A stretch of DNA of 36,438 nucleotides from an uncultured Lachnospiraceae bacterium (GTDB lineage: Bacteria > Bacillota > Clostridia > Lachnospirales > Lachnospiraceae): contig CANQRW010000034.1 of the NCBI GenBank assembly GCA_947626365.1, forward strand, positions 1-36,438, written 5' to 3'. The notes under the pieces were generated by a model that had not been told where the DNA came from, did not search any database, and worked only from the letters and a program-made list of their open reading frames with translations. Both the position numbers and the translations under genes were made by a program. This document shows, one piece after another, positions 19,907-26,513 of this stretch (position 1 is its first letter; each line of letters opens with the position of its first letter).

Positions 19907-20434
19907 TTACGAATCGCTGCCGGTCAGCGTTTTCATGAGAAATGAGTATACCTCAGAGCTTTTCTTCTCCCACAGGGCGCACATGGCTTCGGCCCGCTCC
20001 CGGTCGGGGACCGACAGGCTCAGATCCAGAAGGGAGCTTTTGCCCTCCCGGATCTCCATGTGGACCACGTAGTCCTGGCCGGTGGACTTGTAGTAGTCCG
20101 CCAGGACGCCGGCCTCATTGCGGATGCGGAATCGGTTTTCCTTCAGATACTGATCCATATCGCTGATGATCGCCGGGGAAATGTTATTGCCGAAGAAGTC
20201 CAAGGTCTCTTCGCCCTCCCGGGTAATCTCATAGAGGGAGGAATTGTGGTTGGAGTGCATGCGTATCAGGCCTGCCTCCAGCAGTTCGTTCAGCACCTGC
20301 TGCAGGTTAAAGTAAGTGGTATACTCGTGGGCCAGGAAGAAATCGGTCAACTGAGCGTTGGTCAGCGGAAAGTTCACCTGTTTCAGCATGTACAGATTCA
20401 TTAACTTGAATAAAGTCTTTGGTTCAGATAACAT
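19907..20434 (-). CDS. DUF4364 family protein
   Basis: 175 residues. The N-terminal ~80 residues look like a winged helix: MLSEPKTLFKLMNLYMLKQVNFPLTNAQLTDFF, then FNLQQVLNELLEAGLI and a YEITREGEETLDFF wing. The C-terminal half (from VLADYYKSTGQDYVVHMEIREG) is the DUF4364-specific domain. The family is common in Clostridia and is predicted to bind DNA, but no target is known to me. The promoter at 20531-20503 and a 23-bp near-palindrome at 20461-20483, inside its 5' untranslated region, suggest self-regulation. GGAG precedes the ATG by 9 bases. Confidence 0.85.
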   Translation of the reverse strand: MLSEPKTLFKLMNLYMLKQVNFPLTNAQLTDFFLAHEYTTYFNLQQVLNELLEAGLIRMHSNHNSSLYEITREGEETLDFFGNNISPAIISDMDQYLKENRFRIRNEAGVLADYYKSTGQDYVVHMEIREGKSSLLDLSLSVPDRERAEAMCALWEKKSSEVYSFLMKTLTGSDS

Positions 20435-20584: not shown

Positions 20585-23500
20585 ATGAGAGAACGGATTA
20601 ACCGCCTGGCAAAAGGAATCATCGATATGGAAGCTCCGGAGCTGCAGATTCAGCCGGAGGTTCTGGACGAGGAAGTCTCAGCCGGCGGGATTGAAAAAAA
20701 AGAACTGTATATCGTCAGTCTGAACGGTCTGCATATCAAGGGACTTTTGTATTCCTCCAATCCCAGAGTGAAAGTGGCGACGGCATCCTTCGGCGGACTG
20801 CGCAACCATGCGGCATATGAGGTGGACAGCGGATTTCTGGATTACGGGGATGTGATTGAGGGGTCATTCTATCTGGTTACCAATGCCGGAGAGAGGGAGA
20901 TTCCCTATCATTTCCATGTGCGGGCAGGGGTCTCGGGACAGGCCCTGAGACGGCTTCGCGATCCGAGAGATTTTGCCAATATGGCCCGGCAGGACTATGA
21001 GACGGCGGTCCGGGTGTTTGAGTTTAAGGATTTTGTGGACGTGCCGTTTATGCAGGACAGGCATATCCGCACCATCTATGACGGGCTGAAGGGTCATGGG
21101 AACCGTTACAGCCAGGTGGAGCAGTTTCTGGTGGCGCTGGGCATGAAGAAGCCGGTGGACCTGATCGTAGAAGAGCGGCTGAAGGAGTATCGGGACGTGG
21201 AGCGTGTGACCCACGACCATATCCTTCTGCGGCGCAGCGGCTGGGGTTATCTGCCGGTGACGGCTTCCATAGACGGCAGCTTTATCCAGACGTCCAGAAA
21301 GAACTATACGAATCTCGATTTTCAGGACGGAGTCCTGGAGTTCCCGTATCAGCTGAGTCCGGGAGGCCTTCACGGGGGAAGGAATTTCGGAAGCATTACG
21401 TTTGAGACTCTGGGCGGTTCCGTGTCGGTGGAGATACAGGTGACCAACGGAGGAACCGGAAGAACAGAGTCGGGCGGAACGGAACGGCTGGCCGGATATG
21501 TACAGCTGCGCCTGGACTGCATGAATGAAAAGAAAGACGATGCCGAGGCGAAGAAACAGCTGATTCGGGAGACGGAGCAGCTGCGCCTGGAGAACGGACC
21601 GTCTCCCGGCCTTTCTCTGATGGAAGCGGAGGCATATTTCCTGAATGGGGACATGGAACTGGTCCGGGAAAAACTGGAAGAATGCCGTGAACCTATTCAG
21701 CAGAACCGGACGAGGCAGCCGGGATATTACTGTCTGCATCAGTACCTCAGCCTTCAGGCGGATCCGGATGAGGAGAAGATGGCTTCCCTCGGACGCCTGG
21801 TGAAGAAATATATGGAGGAGGGAAAGGCGGACTATCTTCTGTTTTATGTGTTTACGCTCTGCGAGGAAGAATACTGTTCCGAGAATCCAGGGGAGATTCT
21901 GACCCGGATGAAGGTAATGTACGGCAATGGCTGCCGCAGCCCGTTCCTCTACGAGTATGCGGTGAAGGTTCTCAACCGGCTTCCGCAGCTGCTGTACAGC
22001 GTAGGGGCATTTGAATCCCAGGTGCTGAATTTCGGCGCCAGGAGGGGGCAGATCGGAGAGGAACTGGCAGTGAAGGCGGCCAGGCTTTCGGCGGTCAGCA
22101 GGCAGTATCAGCCGCTCCAGTGCAGGGTGCTGAAGCAGCTTTATGAGAGATATCCCAGAAAAGAGATCCTGGAATCCGTCTGCAGCCTGATGATCCGCGG
22201 ACAATGCCGGTCGGAAAGCGATTTCCCCTGGTATGAGAAGGCTCTTAAGGAACAGATCAGCCTGACCAGGCTTTATGAGTATTTCCTGTACTCTCTGCCG
22301 AAGGATTACAGCCGGCTGGTTCCCAGGGAAGTGCTTTTGTATTTTTCATATGACAATGATCTGGACAGGGCGAGCAAGGCGGTCCTGTATGCCAATATTA
22401 TCCGCTACATGGGTTCCCAGACCCAGCTTTACAGGGACTATCAGAAGGATATGGGCTCCTACGCGGCGGAGCAGATCCTCCAGAATCGGATTGACGGGAA
22501 TCTGGCTGTGATTTATGACGCCGTGATCTTCCCGGACATGATCGATGAAAATATTGCCCGGGTTCTGCCTGCGATCCTGAATTCCTGGAAGATCACCTGC
22601 GATGATCCCAGGATGCGAAGCGTCGTGGTCTGCTATGAGGAACTGACGGAGGAAGGCGTATATCCGCTTGCCAAGGGAGTGTCCTATGTCCCCGTATTTT
22701 TCGAGGGCAGCTGTATCATGTTCCAGGATGTCTACGGCAACCGCTATACGGATGTAAGCTACATTAAGACTCCGGTGCTGAATAAGCCGGAGCTGGAAGA
22801 GAGATGTTTTGAGGTATATCCGGAGCATCCCATGCTGCTTTTGGGTGCCTGCCGGAAGGCTGCGGAGAAGGAGGAGCCTGAGGAAGAGGATATCCGGATC
22901 ATTGAAAAGGGTCTGGCCAGGCTGAAGCTCCATCCGCTGTACAAGTCCAGGCTGGCGGCAGGGATGATCCGTTACTACCGGCAGCAGGCGGAGAAGGATC
23001 ATGAAGGGGAGCCTGGGGCGGATGCGGCGCCGCTGCTGGCTGTAGATAAGACGCTGTTGTCCCGGCAGCAGAAGGCGGATCTCTGCGAGACGCTGATCAG
23101 CCTGGGGTACATTCAGGAGGCCTATAAGATGATCCAGGCCTATTACTGCCAGGTGAGCGCGGACAATTTAAGGCGCCTCTGCAGCCGCATGATACTGAAC
23201 CAGCTGTTTGATCAGAACGATCTGCTGCTGAATCTTGCCTATACGGTATTTGCCCAGGGAAAGGCGGACAGCGTGATCCTGGATTATCTGTGCGAGCATT
23301 TTAACGGGCTGTCGGATCAGATGTACCGGGTGCTTCTCCAGAGCAGCTCCGAGCATGTGGAGACCTACGATTTGGAGGAGCGGCTTCTGGCCCAGATGCT
23401 GTTCTCAGATACTGCGGACCGGATAGACCGGGTATTTGACCTGTATATGAATGGCAGGAGAACCAGCGAAAGTATTGTGAAAGCTTACTTTACCATGAAA

Positions 23501-24148
23501 AGCGCCGCATACTTTTTGGAGGGAAAGCCTGCCGGCGAGCAGGTGTTCCGCTATCTGGAAGGGATGATTCACGGGGCCATCGAGAAAGAGAAGCTGTCTG
23601 CCATCTATCTGCTGGCTCTGACCAAGTACTACGGGAGCCTGGAGCACATCAGCCAGGAGCAGAAGGAATTGTGCCGGCTGGTAGTTGACATCCTTCTGGA
23701 GGAAGGGATGGTATTCCCCCATTTCAAACAGCTCGCGAAGCATATCAGAATCCCTGAGGATATTATGGATAAGGGTATCCTTCAGTATATAGGACATCGG
23801 GATTCCCAGGTGGATCTGCAGATACGTATTCTGCCTCAGGAGCAGCGGTTCCATGGGGATGAGATGAAACGGGTTTATCAGGGAATATTTATCAGACAGA
23901 AGATCCTGTTCGAGGGAGAAGTTATGGAGTACCGGATCTACGAGCACAAGGGGACAGAACAGGTACTCATGGAGGAAGGCAGTCTGACATGCGAGTACAG
24001 AGGCACGGAGTCCGGGGACAGCCGTTTCCATCTGCTGAATCAGATGTCCATGTATATGAATCTGAAGGAGGAAGCAGGACTTCAGAGGACGATGCAGGAA
24101 TATCTGAAGAGAACCGCCGCGGTGGAGCAATTATTCCGGACGCTGTAG
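20585..24148 (+). CDS. DUF5717 family protein, large alpha-solenoid-like protein
   Basis: 1187 residues, cytosolic by appearance (no signal peptide). Residues ~25-135 look like an Ig-type beta-sandwich (LYIVSLNGLHIKGLLYSSNPRVKVATASFGG and EIPYHFHVRAG), residues ~215-305 a second beta-rich section, and ~310-1060 is helical with a TPR-like repetitive character (repeated LYEYF, YEKAL, LARLKLHPLYKSR). The C-terminal 120 residues turn beta-rich again (VYQGIFIRQKILFEGEVMEYRIYEHKG). I recall this as DUF5717, found in Lachnospiraceae. AGGTGA precedes the ATG. It starts a three-gene unit with the Hsp70-like DUF5716 gene and a TPR gene; a scaffolding or adaptor role is inference only. Confidence 0.85.
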   Translation: MRERINRLAKGIIDMEAPELQIQPEVLDEEVSAGGIEKKELYIVSLNGLHIKGLLYSSNPRVKVATASFGGLRNHAAYEVDSGFLDYGDVIEGSFYLVTNAGEREIPYHFHVRAGVSGQALRRLRDPRDFANMARQDYETAVRVFEFKDFVDVPFMQDRHIRTIYDGLKGHGNRYSQVEQFLVALGMKKPVDLIVEERLKEYRDVERVTHDHILLRRSGWGYLPVTASIDGSFIQTSRKNYTNLDFQDGVLEFPYQLSPGGLHGGRNFGSITFETLGGSVSVEIQVTNGGTGRTESGGTERLAGYVQLRLDCMNEKKDDAEAKKQLIRETEQLRLENGPSPGLSLMEAEAYFLNGDMELVREKLEECREPIQQNRTRQPGYYCLHQYLSLQADPDEEKMASLGRLVKKYMEEGKADYLLFYVFTLCEEEYCSENPGEILTRMKVMYGNGCRSPFLYEYAVKVLNRLPQLLYSVGAFESQVLNFGARRGQIGEELAVKAARLSAVSRQYQPLQCRVLKQLYERYPRKEILESVCSLMIRGQCRSESDFPWYEKALKEQISLTRLYEYFLYSLPKDYSRLVPREVLLYFSYDNDLDRASKAVLYANIIRYMGSQTQLYRDYQKDMGSYAAEQILQNRIDGNLAVIYDAVIFPDMIDENIARVLPAILNSWKITCDDPRMRSVVVCYEELTEEGVYPLAKGVSYVPVFFEGSCIMFQDVYGNRYTDVSYIKTPVLNKPELEERCFEVYPEHPMLLLGACRKAAEKEEPEEEDIRIIEKGLARLKLHPLYKSRLAAGMIRYYRQQAEKDHEGEPGADAAPLLAVDKTLLSRQQKADLCETLISLGYIQEAYKMIQAYYCQVSADNLRRLCSRMILNQLFDQNDLLLNLAYTVFAQGKADSVILDYLCEHFNGLSDQMYRVLLQSSSEHVETYDLEERLLAQMLFSDTADRIDRVFDLYMNGRRTSESIVKAYFTMKSAAYFLEGKPAGEQVFRYLEGMIHGAIEKEKLSAIYLLALTKYYGSLEHISQEQKELCRLVVDILLEEGMVFPHFKQLAKHIRIPEDIMDKGILQYIGHRDSQVDLQIRILPQEQRFHGDEMKRVYQGIFIRQKILFEGEVMEYRIYEHKGTEQVLMEEGSLTCEYRGTESGDSRFHLLNQMSMYMNLKEEAGLQRTMQEYLKRTAAVEQLFRTL

Positions 24149-24218
24149 CTTGGTCAGGAGGGCAGATGGATTTGCCGTCTGATATAAGTACGACAGAAAA
24201 GGACTAGGGTAGATTCTT

Positions 24219-25658
24219 ATGGAAGAATTGATGATTGGACTTGACATCTGCGATACCTACACGCAGATGTACTGCTACGGAAATGAAAAGGTCTGGAATT
24301 TTCCGGCGATAATCTGCTATAACAAACCGGACGGCAGCTGGTGGCTGGGAGAGAACGGACGGGATGCCTACAGCTATGCCTTAGGCGACGGGGTCATCGT
24401 AGATAAGCTGCTGAATCTTCTCCAGAAGGAAGGCACCGCGACCATAGGCGGGGTAAAGTATGAGGCCAGGTTCCTTATGGCCAGGTATCTGGAGCTGGTG
24501 CTTCTGAAAGCCATGGAGGCGGCGGACGCGCAGAAAGCGGAAGCTGCCCGGGCGGCAGAGGATGCCCGGCAGACGGCCGATACCCAGGCGGCCGGCGCCC
24601 GGCAGAAGACGGCAGACATGCGGAAAGCGGGAGATCCCCAAATGGCGGCAGAGGATGCCCGGCAGACGGCCGGGCCGTCCGGAGAGGAAGCGGAGAAGGA
24701 ACCGGCAGAGGGGACTCCGGCCCCAACAGTGTATGACGGCGGCAGAATCGGCCATCTGGTTATCACGGTTCCCACCATAAACGCCAGACTGATGGATGCG
24801 CTTATGGGCAGTATCGCGGAACTGAACATCGGCAGGGGAAGAGTGCATATCGTCAGCCACACCGAAAGTTTTCTGTACTTTGTGCTGAGCCAGAAGAGGG
24901 AGATCTGGAACAACCAGGTAGGAATGTTCGATCTCTCCGAAGATTTTCTGGGATATTATGAGATGAAGGTTCAGCGGGGGATGCGCCAGGTCGCGGTGGT
25001 GGCGGACCGGGAGAAGCTGGATGAAGGCTTCAATCTGAGCATCCTGAACGAGCCTCACGGAAAGAAGCTGGCGGACAAGATTCTCTGCGCCTGCGGTGAG
25101 CGCTTTCTTCAGAAGAAGCTGTTTTCCAGCATATTCCTGACAGGGGCCGGATTCAGCCAGCTGGACTGGGCCCAGGAATTTATGAAGCTGGTCTGCACCA
25201 GGAGAAAAGTCTACGTGGAGAAGGGCCTGTTCGCCCAGGGGGCTGCCTGTAAGGCGGCGGATCTGGCGGCGGACAAGACGGCGTATCCTTACGTGTTTAT
25301 CTGTGACGGGCGGCTGGATACCACAGTATCCGTCAAGGTGTTCCGCAACGATCAGGATGGCCAGCTGGTTCTGGCGGCGGCCGGGGATAACTGGTATGAG
25401 GCCGGAAAGACGCTGGAGCTGATCCTGGATCATCAGCAGTATATTGAATTTTTGATCTCGCCTTCCGATCCTAAGCAGCGAAAGACCGTGAAGCTGACGC
25501 TGGAGGGCTTTCCCGAGAGGGATGACAAAACCCTGCGGGTGGCGATGAGGGTGAGTTTTCTGGACGATAAAACGATGGCCGTGGAAGTGAAGGATATGGG
25601 ATTCGGGGAATTCTATCCGTCTACCGGCGCGGCGATCAGACAAGAGGTGATGCTATGA
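24219..25658 (+). CDS. DUF5716 family protein, Hsp70/actin-fold (ASKHA) ATPase-like
   Basis: 479 residues with the Hsp70 order. Phosphate-1-like IGLDICDTYTQ starts near residue 6, VITVPTINARLMDAL (181-195) parallels the Hsp70 VPAYFND strand-helix, SHTESFLYFVL parallels NEPTAAALAYGL, phosphate-2-like FDLSEDF (D238) follows, then the adenosine-type LTGAGFS (307-313) and the GLFAQGAACKA end. Residues ~355-479 resemble a substrate-binding beta-sandwich (KLTLEGFPERDDKTLRV and MAVEVKDMGFGE); the helical lid is missing. Motifs are degenerate (DLSEDF for DLGGGT), so ATP hydrolysis is uncertain. An Ala/Gln/Arg-rich insert lies at ~103-165. It overlaps the TPR gene by 4 bases. Confidence 0.82.
   Translation: MEELMIGLDICDTYTQMYCYGNEKVWNFPAIICYNKPDGSWWLGENGRDAYSYALGDGVIVDKLLNLLQKEGTATIGGVKYEARFLMARYLELVLLKAMEAADAQKAEAARAAEDARQTADTQAAGARQKTADMRKAGDPQMAAEDARQTAGPSGEEAEKEPAEGTPAPTVYDGGRIGHLVITVPTINARLMDALMGSIAELNIGRGRVHIVSHTESFLYFVLSQKREIWNNQVGMFDLSEDFLGYYEMKVQRGMRQVAVVADREKLDEGFNLSILNEPHGKKLADKILCACGERFLQKKLFSSIFLTGAGFSQLDWAQEFMKLVCTRRKVYVEKGLFAQGAACKAADLAADKTAYPYVFICDGRLDTTVSVKVFRNDQDGQLVLAAAGDNWYEAGKTLELILDHQQYIEFLISPSDPKQRKTVKLTLEGFPERDDKTLRVAMRVSFLDDKTMAVEVKDMGFGEFYPSTGAAIRQEVML
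24551..24672. repeat. In-frame 29-bp direct repeats in the DUF5716 linker
   Basis: A 29-bp sequence (starting GGCGGCAGAGGATGCCCGGC) is found at 24551-24579 and identically at 24644-24672, spaced 93 bases (31 codons). Both encode AAEDARQTA. The linker between the first Hsp70-like strands and the rest of the ATPase domain could expand or shrink by recombination without breaking the frame. Confidence 0.88.
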
Positions 25659-26467
25659 GCGTCATAGTTTGCAGAAAAGAGCAGGTGAAGCATCCGTATT
25701 TTATCGATACGCTGGGAGTTTTCGTCTACACTTCTCAGGAACTTTGCTACGCCATCTACAATCATCCGATCCTGGCCATGGACGGCTTTATGAGCCGGAA
25801 TCTGATTGATTTTATCCGGGATGAGCTGGGAATGGGATTCGCCGCTCTGAAGATGGAGCGGTGGATGAAGAGCGGAGAGAACCAGGACGAGCTGATCTTT
25901 CTGTTTCTCCAGGAGGCGGAGTATTACAGCAGCGCAGAGATTAGCCGTCTGCGCCAGAAGGTAGCCGCGCTGCGGAAGCTTCATCCGCTGGAATATGCCA
26001 AGAGAAAGGCGGATTATCTGGTAGAATTCAAGCAGTACGGCCGTGCCATTGCCGGCTACGAGAAGATTCTGGAATCTCCCCTTACAGAGAAGGCGGATGA
26101 GGCATTTGTGGGAAAGGTATGGAACAATCTGGGCGTCTGCTTCGCCAGGATCTTCCAGTTTGATAAGGCGGCGGATGCCTATGATAAAGCGTATTCAAAG
26201 CTGAAAGATGTAAATATTCTGGAGCGGATTTATCATTTGACCAGGCTGAAGCCGGATATTTCGCTGAAGGAGCGGTACCAGTCGATCGTCAGCGACCAGA
26301 TGAAAGAGGCGTGGGATAAAGACTTCGAGCAGGCCCAGGATGATGCCGCCAGGTCGGAGAAGCTGGAGAAACTGAACGAGATGTTTAAGAAGGATCCGGT
26401 GAAGCGGATGGAAGGAGCCCGGCAGGTTCTGGAATCATGGAAGCAGGAGTACAGAGGGATGGCGTAA
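25655..26467 (+). CDS. TPR-like protein of the DUF5717-DUF5716 operon
   Basis: 270 residues. The first ~100 residues are a conserved N-terminal region (VKHPYFIDTLGVFVYTSQELCYAIYNHP, then LIDFIRDELGMGF) that I cannot assign. Residues ~115-205 contain TPR-type helix pairs (KADYLVEFKQYGRAIAGYEKIL and NNLGVCFARIFQFDKAADAYDKAY). The C-terminal ~70 residues are charged coiled-coil-like (FEQAQDDAARSEKLEKLNEMF). The ATG overlaps the stop of DUF5716 (ATGA) with AGAGGTGA upstream. A terminator begins inside its stop codon region, so this is the last gene of the unit. A TPR co-chaperone for the Hsp70-like partner is an attractive but untested idea. Confidence 0.85.
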   Translation: MSVIVCRKEQVKHPYFIDTLGVFVYTSQELCYAIYNHPILAMDGFMSRNLIDFIRDELGMGFAALKMERWMKSGENQDELIFLFLQEAEYYSSAEISRLRQKVAALRKLHPLEYAKRKADYLVEFKQYGRAIAGYEKILESPLTEKADEAFVGKVWNNLGVCFARIFQFDKAADAYDKAYSKLKDVNILERIYHLTRLKPDISLKERYQSIVSDQMKEAWDKDFEQAQDDAARSEKLEKLNEMFKKDPVKRMEGARQVLESWKQEYRGMA

Positions 26468-26480
26468 GCCGTCCCTTTTT
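26456..26480 (+). terminator. Terminator of the DUF5717 operon
   Basis: GGGATGGC (26456-26463) pairs with GCCGTCCC (26468-26475; one G-U), loop GTAA, then TTTTT (26476-26480). The stop codon TAA is the last three loop bases. Confidence 0.8.
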
Positions 26481-26513
26481 CGGTATGGCGGGCATGCCGA
26501 GGCGCGGCAGGAA

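Follow-up and report, generated by a model that had tools for sequence, protein, structure and literature searches.

The window analyzed here is the whole 36,438-nucleotide stretch of contig CANQRW010000034.1 (positions 1 to 36,438, forward strand; GenBank assembly GCA_947626365.1) from an uncultured Lachnospiraceae bacterium. The system in question is a three-gene operon encoding a DUF5717 protein, a DUF5716 protein, and a tetratricopeptide repeat (TPR)-like protein (Table 1). A first-pass annotation, made from the sequence alone, had read these genes as a client or assembly machine built around a lidless Hsp70 relative with two repeat-protein partners. We found the three + strand open reading frames (ORFs) as described, with every quoted DUF5716 peptide present in the translation, and the DUF names it gave were right: Pfam assigned ORF1 nearly end to end to DUF5717 (PF18984/PF18983, E = 1e-259 / 6e-86) and residues 179-479 of ORF2 to DUF5716_C (PF18980, E = 2e-99). 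The proposed coupling of DUF5716 and TPR translation agrees with the ATGA that the two ORFs share at 25655-25658. Of the single promoter and single terminator also proposed, the terminator has a counterpart in a hairpin followed by T residues, which straddles the TPR stop codon (-19.8 kcal/mol for 26446-26486, z = -4.4) and is absent from the terminator list of the consensus scanner; the promoter has none, as the consensus scan of the window returned no promoter-like site on the + strand.

Table 1. Positions of the operon genes, their predicted parts and an associated gene of sister families
Feature	Position	Strand	Basis or occurrence
DUF5717 protein, 1187 aa	20585..24148	+	ORF list; Pfam
DUF5717 beta-sandwich 1, residues 20-113	20642..20923	+	predicted strand elements
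DUF5717 beta-sandwich 2, residues 192-288	21158..21448	+	structure prediction
DUF5717 alpha-solenoid, residues 297-1061, with inserted beta element 667-730	21473..23767	+	
DUF5717 C-terminal beta-sandwich, residues 1063-1135	23771..23989	+	structure prediction
DUF5716 protein, 479 aa; pseudo-Hsp70 (degenerate Hsp70 with no lid and most of NBD subdomain IIB missing)	24219..25658	+	
Phosphate-1-like IGLDICDTYTQ, residues 6-16; Asp retained, TTN gone	24234..24266	+	
Ala/Glu-rich low-complexity NBD insert, about residues 97-172	24507..24734	+	pLDDT < 50 at 138-168
Phosphate-2-like FDLSEDF, residues 237-243; GGGT gone	24927..24947	+	
Adenosine-motif-like LTGAGFS, residues 307-313; GxGF common to most larger-operon pseudo-Hsp70s	25137..25157	+	
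SBDbeta-like beta-sandwich, residues 368-479; protein end, no lid	25320..25655	+	predicted strands; structural alignment; lid gap
TPR-like protein, 270 aa; start shares 4 bp with the DUF5716 stop	25655..26467	+	
Intrinsic-terminator-like hairpin, then T run	26453..26478	+	folding energy; sequence
Coiled-coil-like protein, about 370-400 aa, 3' of TPR	L097:10102-11238, L099:12695-13852, L104:1528-2628, L105:5229-6443		sister families

Structure prediction followed by a structure search gave an Hsp70-like model for DUF5716, in which an actin-fold nucleotide-binding domain (NBD) precedes a beta-sandwich substrate-binding domain (SBDbeta) and NBD subdomain IIB is absent. The SBDbeta aligned to that of DnaK, with the alignment reaching residue 479; the model ends in this domain, and the lid columns were gapped in the six Lachnospiraceae rows printed. 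Together with the profile matches given below, these results bear out an Hsp70 relation, the order of NBD and beta-sandwich, the absent lid, and a predicted Hsp70-like fold, the latter without subdomain IIB. MreB and FtsA were not among the 50 structure-search rows shown, an absence from a list that excludes nothing. The Ala/Glu-rich insert of the NBD was mostly unfilled in the genus-diverse set of 31 rows used for conservation analysis (mean top frequency 0.06), and no tandem DNA repeat was detected within 24507-24734.

Outside Lachnospiraceae, DUF5717 opens a larger operon. Of 146 genomes sampled from the order, 75 had DUF5717, including 60 outside Lachnospiraceae (one of those below the cut-off), and we inspected its surroundings in 20 of these 60. 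The genes lie on one strand in the order DUF5717, an Hsp70 (H1), a protein ending in a GrpE domain, a DUF5716-like pseudo-Hsp70 (D16), a second Hsp70 (H2), a third Hsp70 carrying a VWA domain at the lid position (H3), and a TPR protein. This order was complete in 13/20 loci, including one with H3 and apparently TPR in split ORFs (G449) and two with a small unlabelled ORF between operon genes (G463, G530). Among the seven incomplete loci, four were cut by contig ends (G450, G451, G454, G457), two had no H1 beside DUF5717 within the 2-4 kb fetched (G515, G557), and in one (G477) neither H3 nor TPR could be recognised within the 3.2 kb retrieved. Pfam identified H1 as Hsp70 (PF00012, E = 4e-65 to 7e-70 in the three scanned) and a GrpE domain in 3/4 of the GrpE-position proteins scanned; the VWA domain of H3 was checked by Pfam in L075, L100, and L109, and the other H3 proteins were assigned by similarity. 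The lid was absent in the H1 and H2 rows checked, and H1, H2, and H3 of L107 fell well short of the NCBIfam DnaK and HscA cut-offs. Two of the Hsp70-VWA fusions, in which the main catalytic residues are kept and VWA replaces the lid, lie at L100:1500-3587 and L109:15146-17215. We detected no J-domain by Pfam in the operon proteins scanned and no GTPase among them, a scan that did not cover all flanking genes. A second GrpE match accompanied DUF5717 in 57/60 DUF5717-bearing genomes outside the family, versus 6/71 genomes without DUF5717 (Fisher p = 5e-26, shared ancestry ignored); it was present in 2/15 Lachnospiraceae counted. In the window genome itself, a single DnaK and a single GrpE exceeded the cut-offs, both encoded in an hrcA-grpE-dnaK-dnaJ cluster.

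The larger operon supplies the intermediates through which DUF5716 can be connected to Hsp70. A profile of 56 Lachnospiraceae DUF5716 rows matched D16 (14/14), H2 (13/13), and both DnaKs (2.8e-9 and 5.3e-7). No decoy scored better than 0.9, and the MreB of the window genome was not matched. D16 of L107 in turn matched DnaK in the PDB by sequence, and 2/4 D16 proteins scanned matched PF00012 (L080 and L107; not L075 or L079). These intermediates and the predicted fold support DUF5716 as an Hsp70 descendant that keeps the NBD and SBDbeta order and has no lid.

Phylogenetic trees gave the polarity. When 81 rows were placed in a tree with DnaK as the outgroup, H2 was sister to D16 plus Lachnospiraceae DUF5716. 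A second, more careful tree of 44 rows, with its root on H2, placed Lachnospiraceae DUF5716 in one clade (100/100), nested in D16 and adjoining the f102 member G449 (100/99); the two trees used 24 and 17 of the 56 Lachnospiraceae rows, respectively. D16 was monophyletic in 0% of 200 bootstrap trees (approximately unbiased test, p = 9.9e-7), and again in 0% after removal of the two longest rows. Since DUF5716 is nested in D16, the larger operon is the older one, and all three Hsp70s (H1, H2, and H3) were lost in Lachnospiraceae together with the GrpE protein. As judged from these trees, the three-gene operon of Lachnospiraceae is a reduced form of the larger multi-Hsp70 operon.

The losses extend into the ATP site. 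Residues are labelled here in what we take to be E. coli DnaK numbering (D8, K70, E171, T199, D201, etc.). H1 (17 rows), H2 (13), and H3 (11) all kept D8, T11, T12, K70, E171, D194, GGG, T199, and D201; a single H2 row differed at N13, and the Arg of the adenosine motif (label R345) was replaced throughout (17/17, 13/13, and 11/11). The equivalents of the GGGT motif, T199, and D201 were gone in D16 (14 rows) and in Lachnospiraceae DUF5716 (56 rows), with the first Gly of GGGT still present in 10/14 D16 rows. The phosphate-1 Asp was retained in 13/14 D16 and 53/56 Lachnospiraceae rows, and the GxGF of the adenosine motif was mostly shared (F in 11/14 and 56/56, respectively). A loss of K70 and E171, suggested by differing residues in the aligned columns of DUF5716, was dropped because a shift of two residues recovered Lys in 36/56 and Glu in 53/56 rows.

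The span from the phosphate-2 to the adenosine motif measured 143 residues in DnaK, 145 (133-152) in D16, and 71 (60-78) in Lachnospiraceae DUF5716. It was short in 55/55 Lachnospiraceae rows measured, and the ~72 missing residues correspond by alignment to most of subdomain IIB. In E. coli DnaK, this subdomain is contacted by GrpE, as described in part of PMC10825016; thus, a lobe gripped by the exchange factor is absent from the same lineage in which the GrpE protein of the operon is absent. Because GGGT, T199, D201, most of IIB, and the lid are absent, DUF5716 is not expected to cycle, and we infer from its sequence that it lacks ATPase activity. The active client or assembly machine of the first-pass annotation is not upheld by an NBD with a degenerate ATP site and no subdomain IIB; what stands is the relation to Hsp70 and the conserved operon that also encodes two repeat proteins, with DUF5716 as a degenerate remnant of a richer operon and not an intact chaperone.

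The predicted DUF5717 structure, consisting of beta-sandwiches, an alpha-solenoid, and a further beta-sandwich, matches the earlier description of a 1187-residue helical-repeat protein with beta-sandwich ends, and its two N-terminal beta-sandwiches are predicted to be PapD/MSP-like. As for the TPR assignment of ORF3, the window protein has a single weak TPR (1.4e-4), under the Pfam cut-off, and its larger-operon homologues were strong TPR proteins over the cut-off in 3/3 scanned. A profile of the window TPR protein matched the TPR proteins that end the larger operon at 72-109 bits.

DUF5716 was present in 244/250 sampled Lachnospiraceae genomes and in 2/199 genomes across the phylum, both of them Lachnospiraceae; DUF5717 exceeded its cut-off in 9/245 genomes of a class sample, again all Lachnospiraceae. 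The DUF5717-DUF5716-TPR unit was single-copy in almost every genome of the family, and the three genes were adjacent and in this order in 54/54 loci (L001-L054), as the first-pass annotation would have it. These loci include the window (L025), L033, which likely repeats L019, and L045, which scores exactly like L004, leaving at most 51 independent. L014, L021, and L022 were assigned more loosely than to Lachnospiraceae, and L024 and L026-L054 came from the family search as its top 30 matches by score, a choice that favours conserved members. In a further locus, L134, DUF5716 went unlabelled in the locus comparison, apparently displaced by a longer opposite ORF, and was found as G378 in the family search.

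Several genes recur beside the operon. A coiled-coil-like gene lay directly 3' of TPR in 10/22 compared loci, and its product, with no Pfam family over the cut-off, was found in 94/146 genomes of the order, including some without DUF5717. By hydropathy alone, 14 different proteins of this kind showed two adjacent hydrophobic stretches resembling a hairpin in the membrane. Divergent from the operon, at 19907-20434 on the - strand, lies a gene for a DUF4364 protein whose winged-helix match is weak and under the Pfam cut-off; the arrangement recurs in three other compared loci, and this protein could be a regulator. A class-I aminotransferase gene was divergent and upstream of DUF5717 in 13/20 Lachnospiraceae loci (L115-L134), directly adjacent in 12, and had the same divergent upstream position in eight sister-family loci (L076-L080, L084, L087, and L107).

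On the homology, predicted fold, losses, gene order, and polarity obtained by computation, DUF5716 is probably a non-cycling, Ssz1-like pseudo-Hsp70, the survivor of an ancestral multi-Hsp70 operon, held with DUF5717 and the TPR protein as a platform. The ancestral operon would have encoded H1, H2, H3-VWA, the GrpE-domain protein, the pseudo-Hsp70, the DUF5717 scaffold, and the TPR protein. The Lachnospiraceae lineage would then have lost the active-type Hsp70s along with the GrpE protein, and DUF5717-DUF5716-TPR would have become a nearly universal, mostly single-copy unit. DUF5716 most likely no longer cycles, like yeast Ssz1, and its SBDbeta might bind a peptide or a segment of a partner weakly and exchange it quickly. 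DUF5717, through its PapD-like modules and solenoid, could form a complex with the TPR protein that fixes DUF5716 in place. An ATP-driven step, with hand-over of any client, may come from the housekeeping DnaK/GrpE, or may be gone. The downstream coiled-coil gene with its hydrophobic hairpin in many family members suggests a site at the cytoplasmic membrane.

A number of observations weigh against this interpretation. Direct searches fail to reach Hsp70: window DUF5716 had no HSP70 match in Pfam at E <= 1, its sequence search of the PDB returned no Hsp70 at E <= 10, a 24-row profile and the G449 relative likewise found none in the PDB, and hhalign of A1 against Hsp70s was weak (31% probability, E = 5e-4). 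The scores of the 56-row profile for H1 (0.002-0.6) and H3 (0.0003-6.5) overlap the decoy range; its rows include the window twice, and L019/L033 and L004/L045 are likely repeats. The DUF5716 model was built on 24 fairly close sequences, and its residues 221-330 reach a predicted local distance difference test (pLDDT) score of only 60-71. The retained phosphate-1 Asp, together with Glu near E171 and Lys near K70, makes nucleotide binding possible. The mean entropy of the SBDbeta was 2.03, against 1.70-2.26 for the NBD (31 rows); it is not clearly more conserved and therefore lends no special support to a peptide-binding role. In the larger operon, the GrpE-position protein of L080 had no GrpE match in Pfam at E <= 1. 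The coiled-coil membrane protein was not found in the genome of the window itself, and as it also occurs without DUF5717, it is an optional partner at most.

Alternative explanations account for parts of the same evidence. A functional lidless Hsp70, which would use ATP to fold or assemble clients and have DUF5717 and the TPR protein as its co-chaperones, would fit the predicted Hsp70 fold with its SBDbeta as well as the conserved phosphate-1 Asp, GxGF Phe, and Glu near E171; the loss of GGGT, T199, D201, and most of IIB, a second GrpE missing in 13/15 family genomes counted, and the lack of a J-domain match in the operon proteins scanned make it improbable. The latter also counts against the pseudo-Hsp70 as an allosteric partner of the housekeeping DnaK, by analogy with the ribosome-associated complex and Ssb, which would make the unit a DnaK cofactor. 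We regard this possibility as rather unlikely, even with the precedent of Ssz1 (part of PMC7083937) and an ancestral operon that encoded it together with three Hsp70s whose main catalytic residues are intact. An actin homologue of the MreB/FtsA type, bound to the membrane or forming filaments, would share the actin-fold NBD, and H1-H3 also match MreB_Mbl in Pfam. However, the SBDbeta aligned to that of DnaK, the nesting of DUF5716 in the Hsp70 tree as sister to H2, and a profile that matches DnaK and not the MreB of the same genome render such an identity highly improbable.

A defence or conflict system resembling the GAP1-N2 GTPase systems (Kaur et al. 2020, PMC7159879, in the part describing them) would explain why an Hsp70, GrpE, and a beta-sandwich/TPR protein are common to those systems and the larger operon. 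H2 and H3 of L107 matched part of the candidate defence model PDC-M61B (8.8e-11 and 2.7e-7), and the TPR protein of L107 weakly matched repeat-bearing defence models. Conversely, no PADLOC model matched window DUF5717 or DUF5716 at E <= 0.01, PbeC (0.0018) was the only one to match the TPR protein, and one copy in nearly all family genomes is unlike the patchy occurrence of defence loci; a conflict role is thus distinctly unlikely. Membership in a GAP1-N2 system was rejected, as GAP1-N2 (PF20013) was found in 1/14 genomes tested, off the operon contig.

For the non-cycling pseudo-Hsp70, there is roughly an even chance that the lineage dismantled a multi-Hsp70 machine and kept its inactive paralogue as a permanent, energy-free peptide-binding scaffold, by now almost universal in Lachnospiraceae and frequently adjacent to the membrane coiled-coil protein, and that the larger operon represents a fourth kind of bacterial Hsp70 system. 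If so, the sister-family operon would combine lidless Hsp70s, one fused to VWA and one a pseudo-Hsp70, with a dedicated GrpE-domain protein. The Hsp70 descent gives an evolutionary identity to an uncharacterised Pfam family that is near-universal in a main gut-bacterial family. Active-type Hsp70s, a pseudo-Hsp70 with IIB, and a pseudo-Hsp70 without IIB form a natural series that allows loss of the lobe for the exchange factor to be compared with loss of the factor itself. In the open-access literature, which mostly leaves out subscription papers and preprints, we found no paper on DUF5716/DUF5717 function or on an Hsp70/GrpE/VWA/TPR operon; the one article listed under the DUF names deals with curcuma and mismatch repair.

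Among known systems, the window proteins belong to Pfam PF18980, PF18984, and PF18983, whose printed descriptions state no function. Ssz1, as described in part of PMC7083937, is an Hsp70 without a lid that binds but does not hydrolyse ATP and has been proposed to transfer nascent chains via its SBDbeta. It belongs to the yeast ribosome-associated complex and is eukaryotic, J-protein-paired, and ribosome-located; its likeness to DUF5716 would be one of principle, and DUF5716 differs in having lost most of IIB and in an operon in which no J-protein was found. The prokaryotic types DnaK, HscA, and HscC, all with a lid and most ATPase residues kept according to part of PMC8215388, share ancestry and the NBD-SBDbeta order with DUF5716, which lacks the lid and most of those residues. 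The nearest published gene set that we found is the Hsp70 theme of GAP1-N2 systems, comprising an Hsp70, GrpE, a second Hsp70 without a peptide-binding domain, and an FNIII-TPR protein; vWA occurs in another theme of these systems (both in part of PMC7159879). A GAP1-N2 protein was seen at L139 (G530 C9), in a genome that has the larger Hsp70 operon on another contig. The GTPase core sets the GAP1-N2 systems apart, whereas the larger operon combines three Hsp70s with one pseudo-Hsp70.

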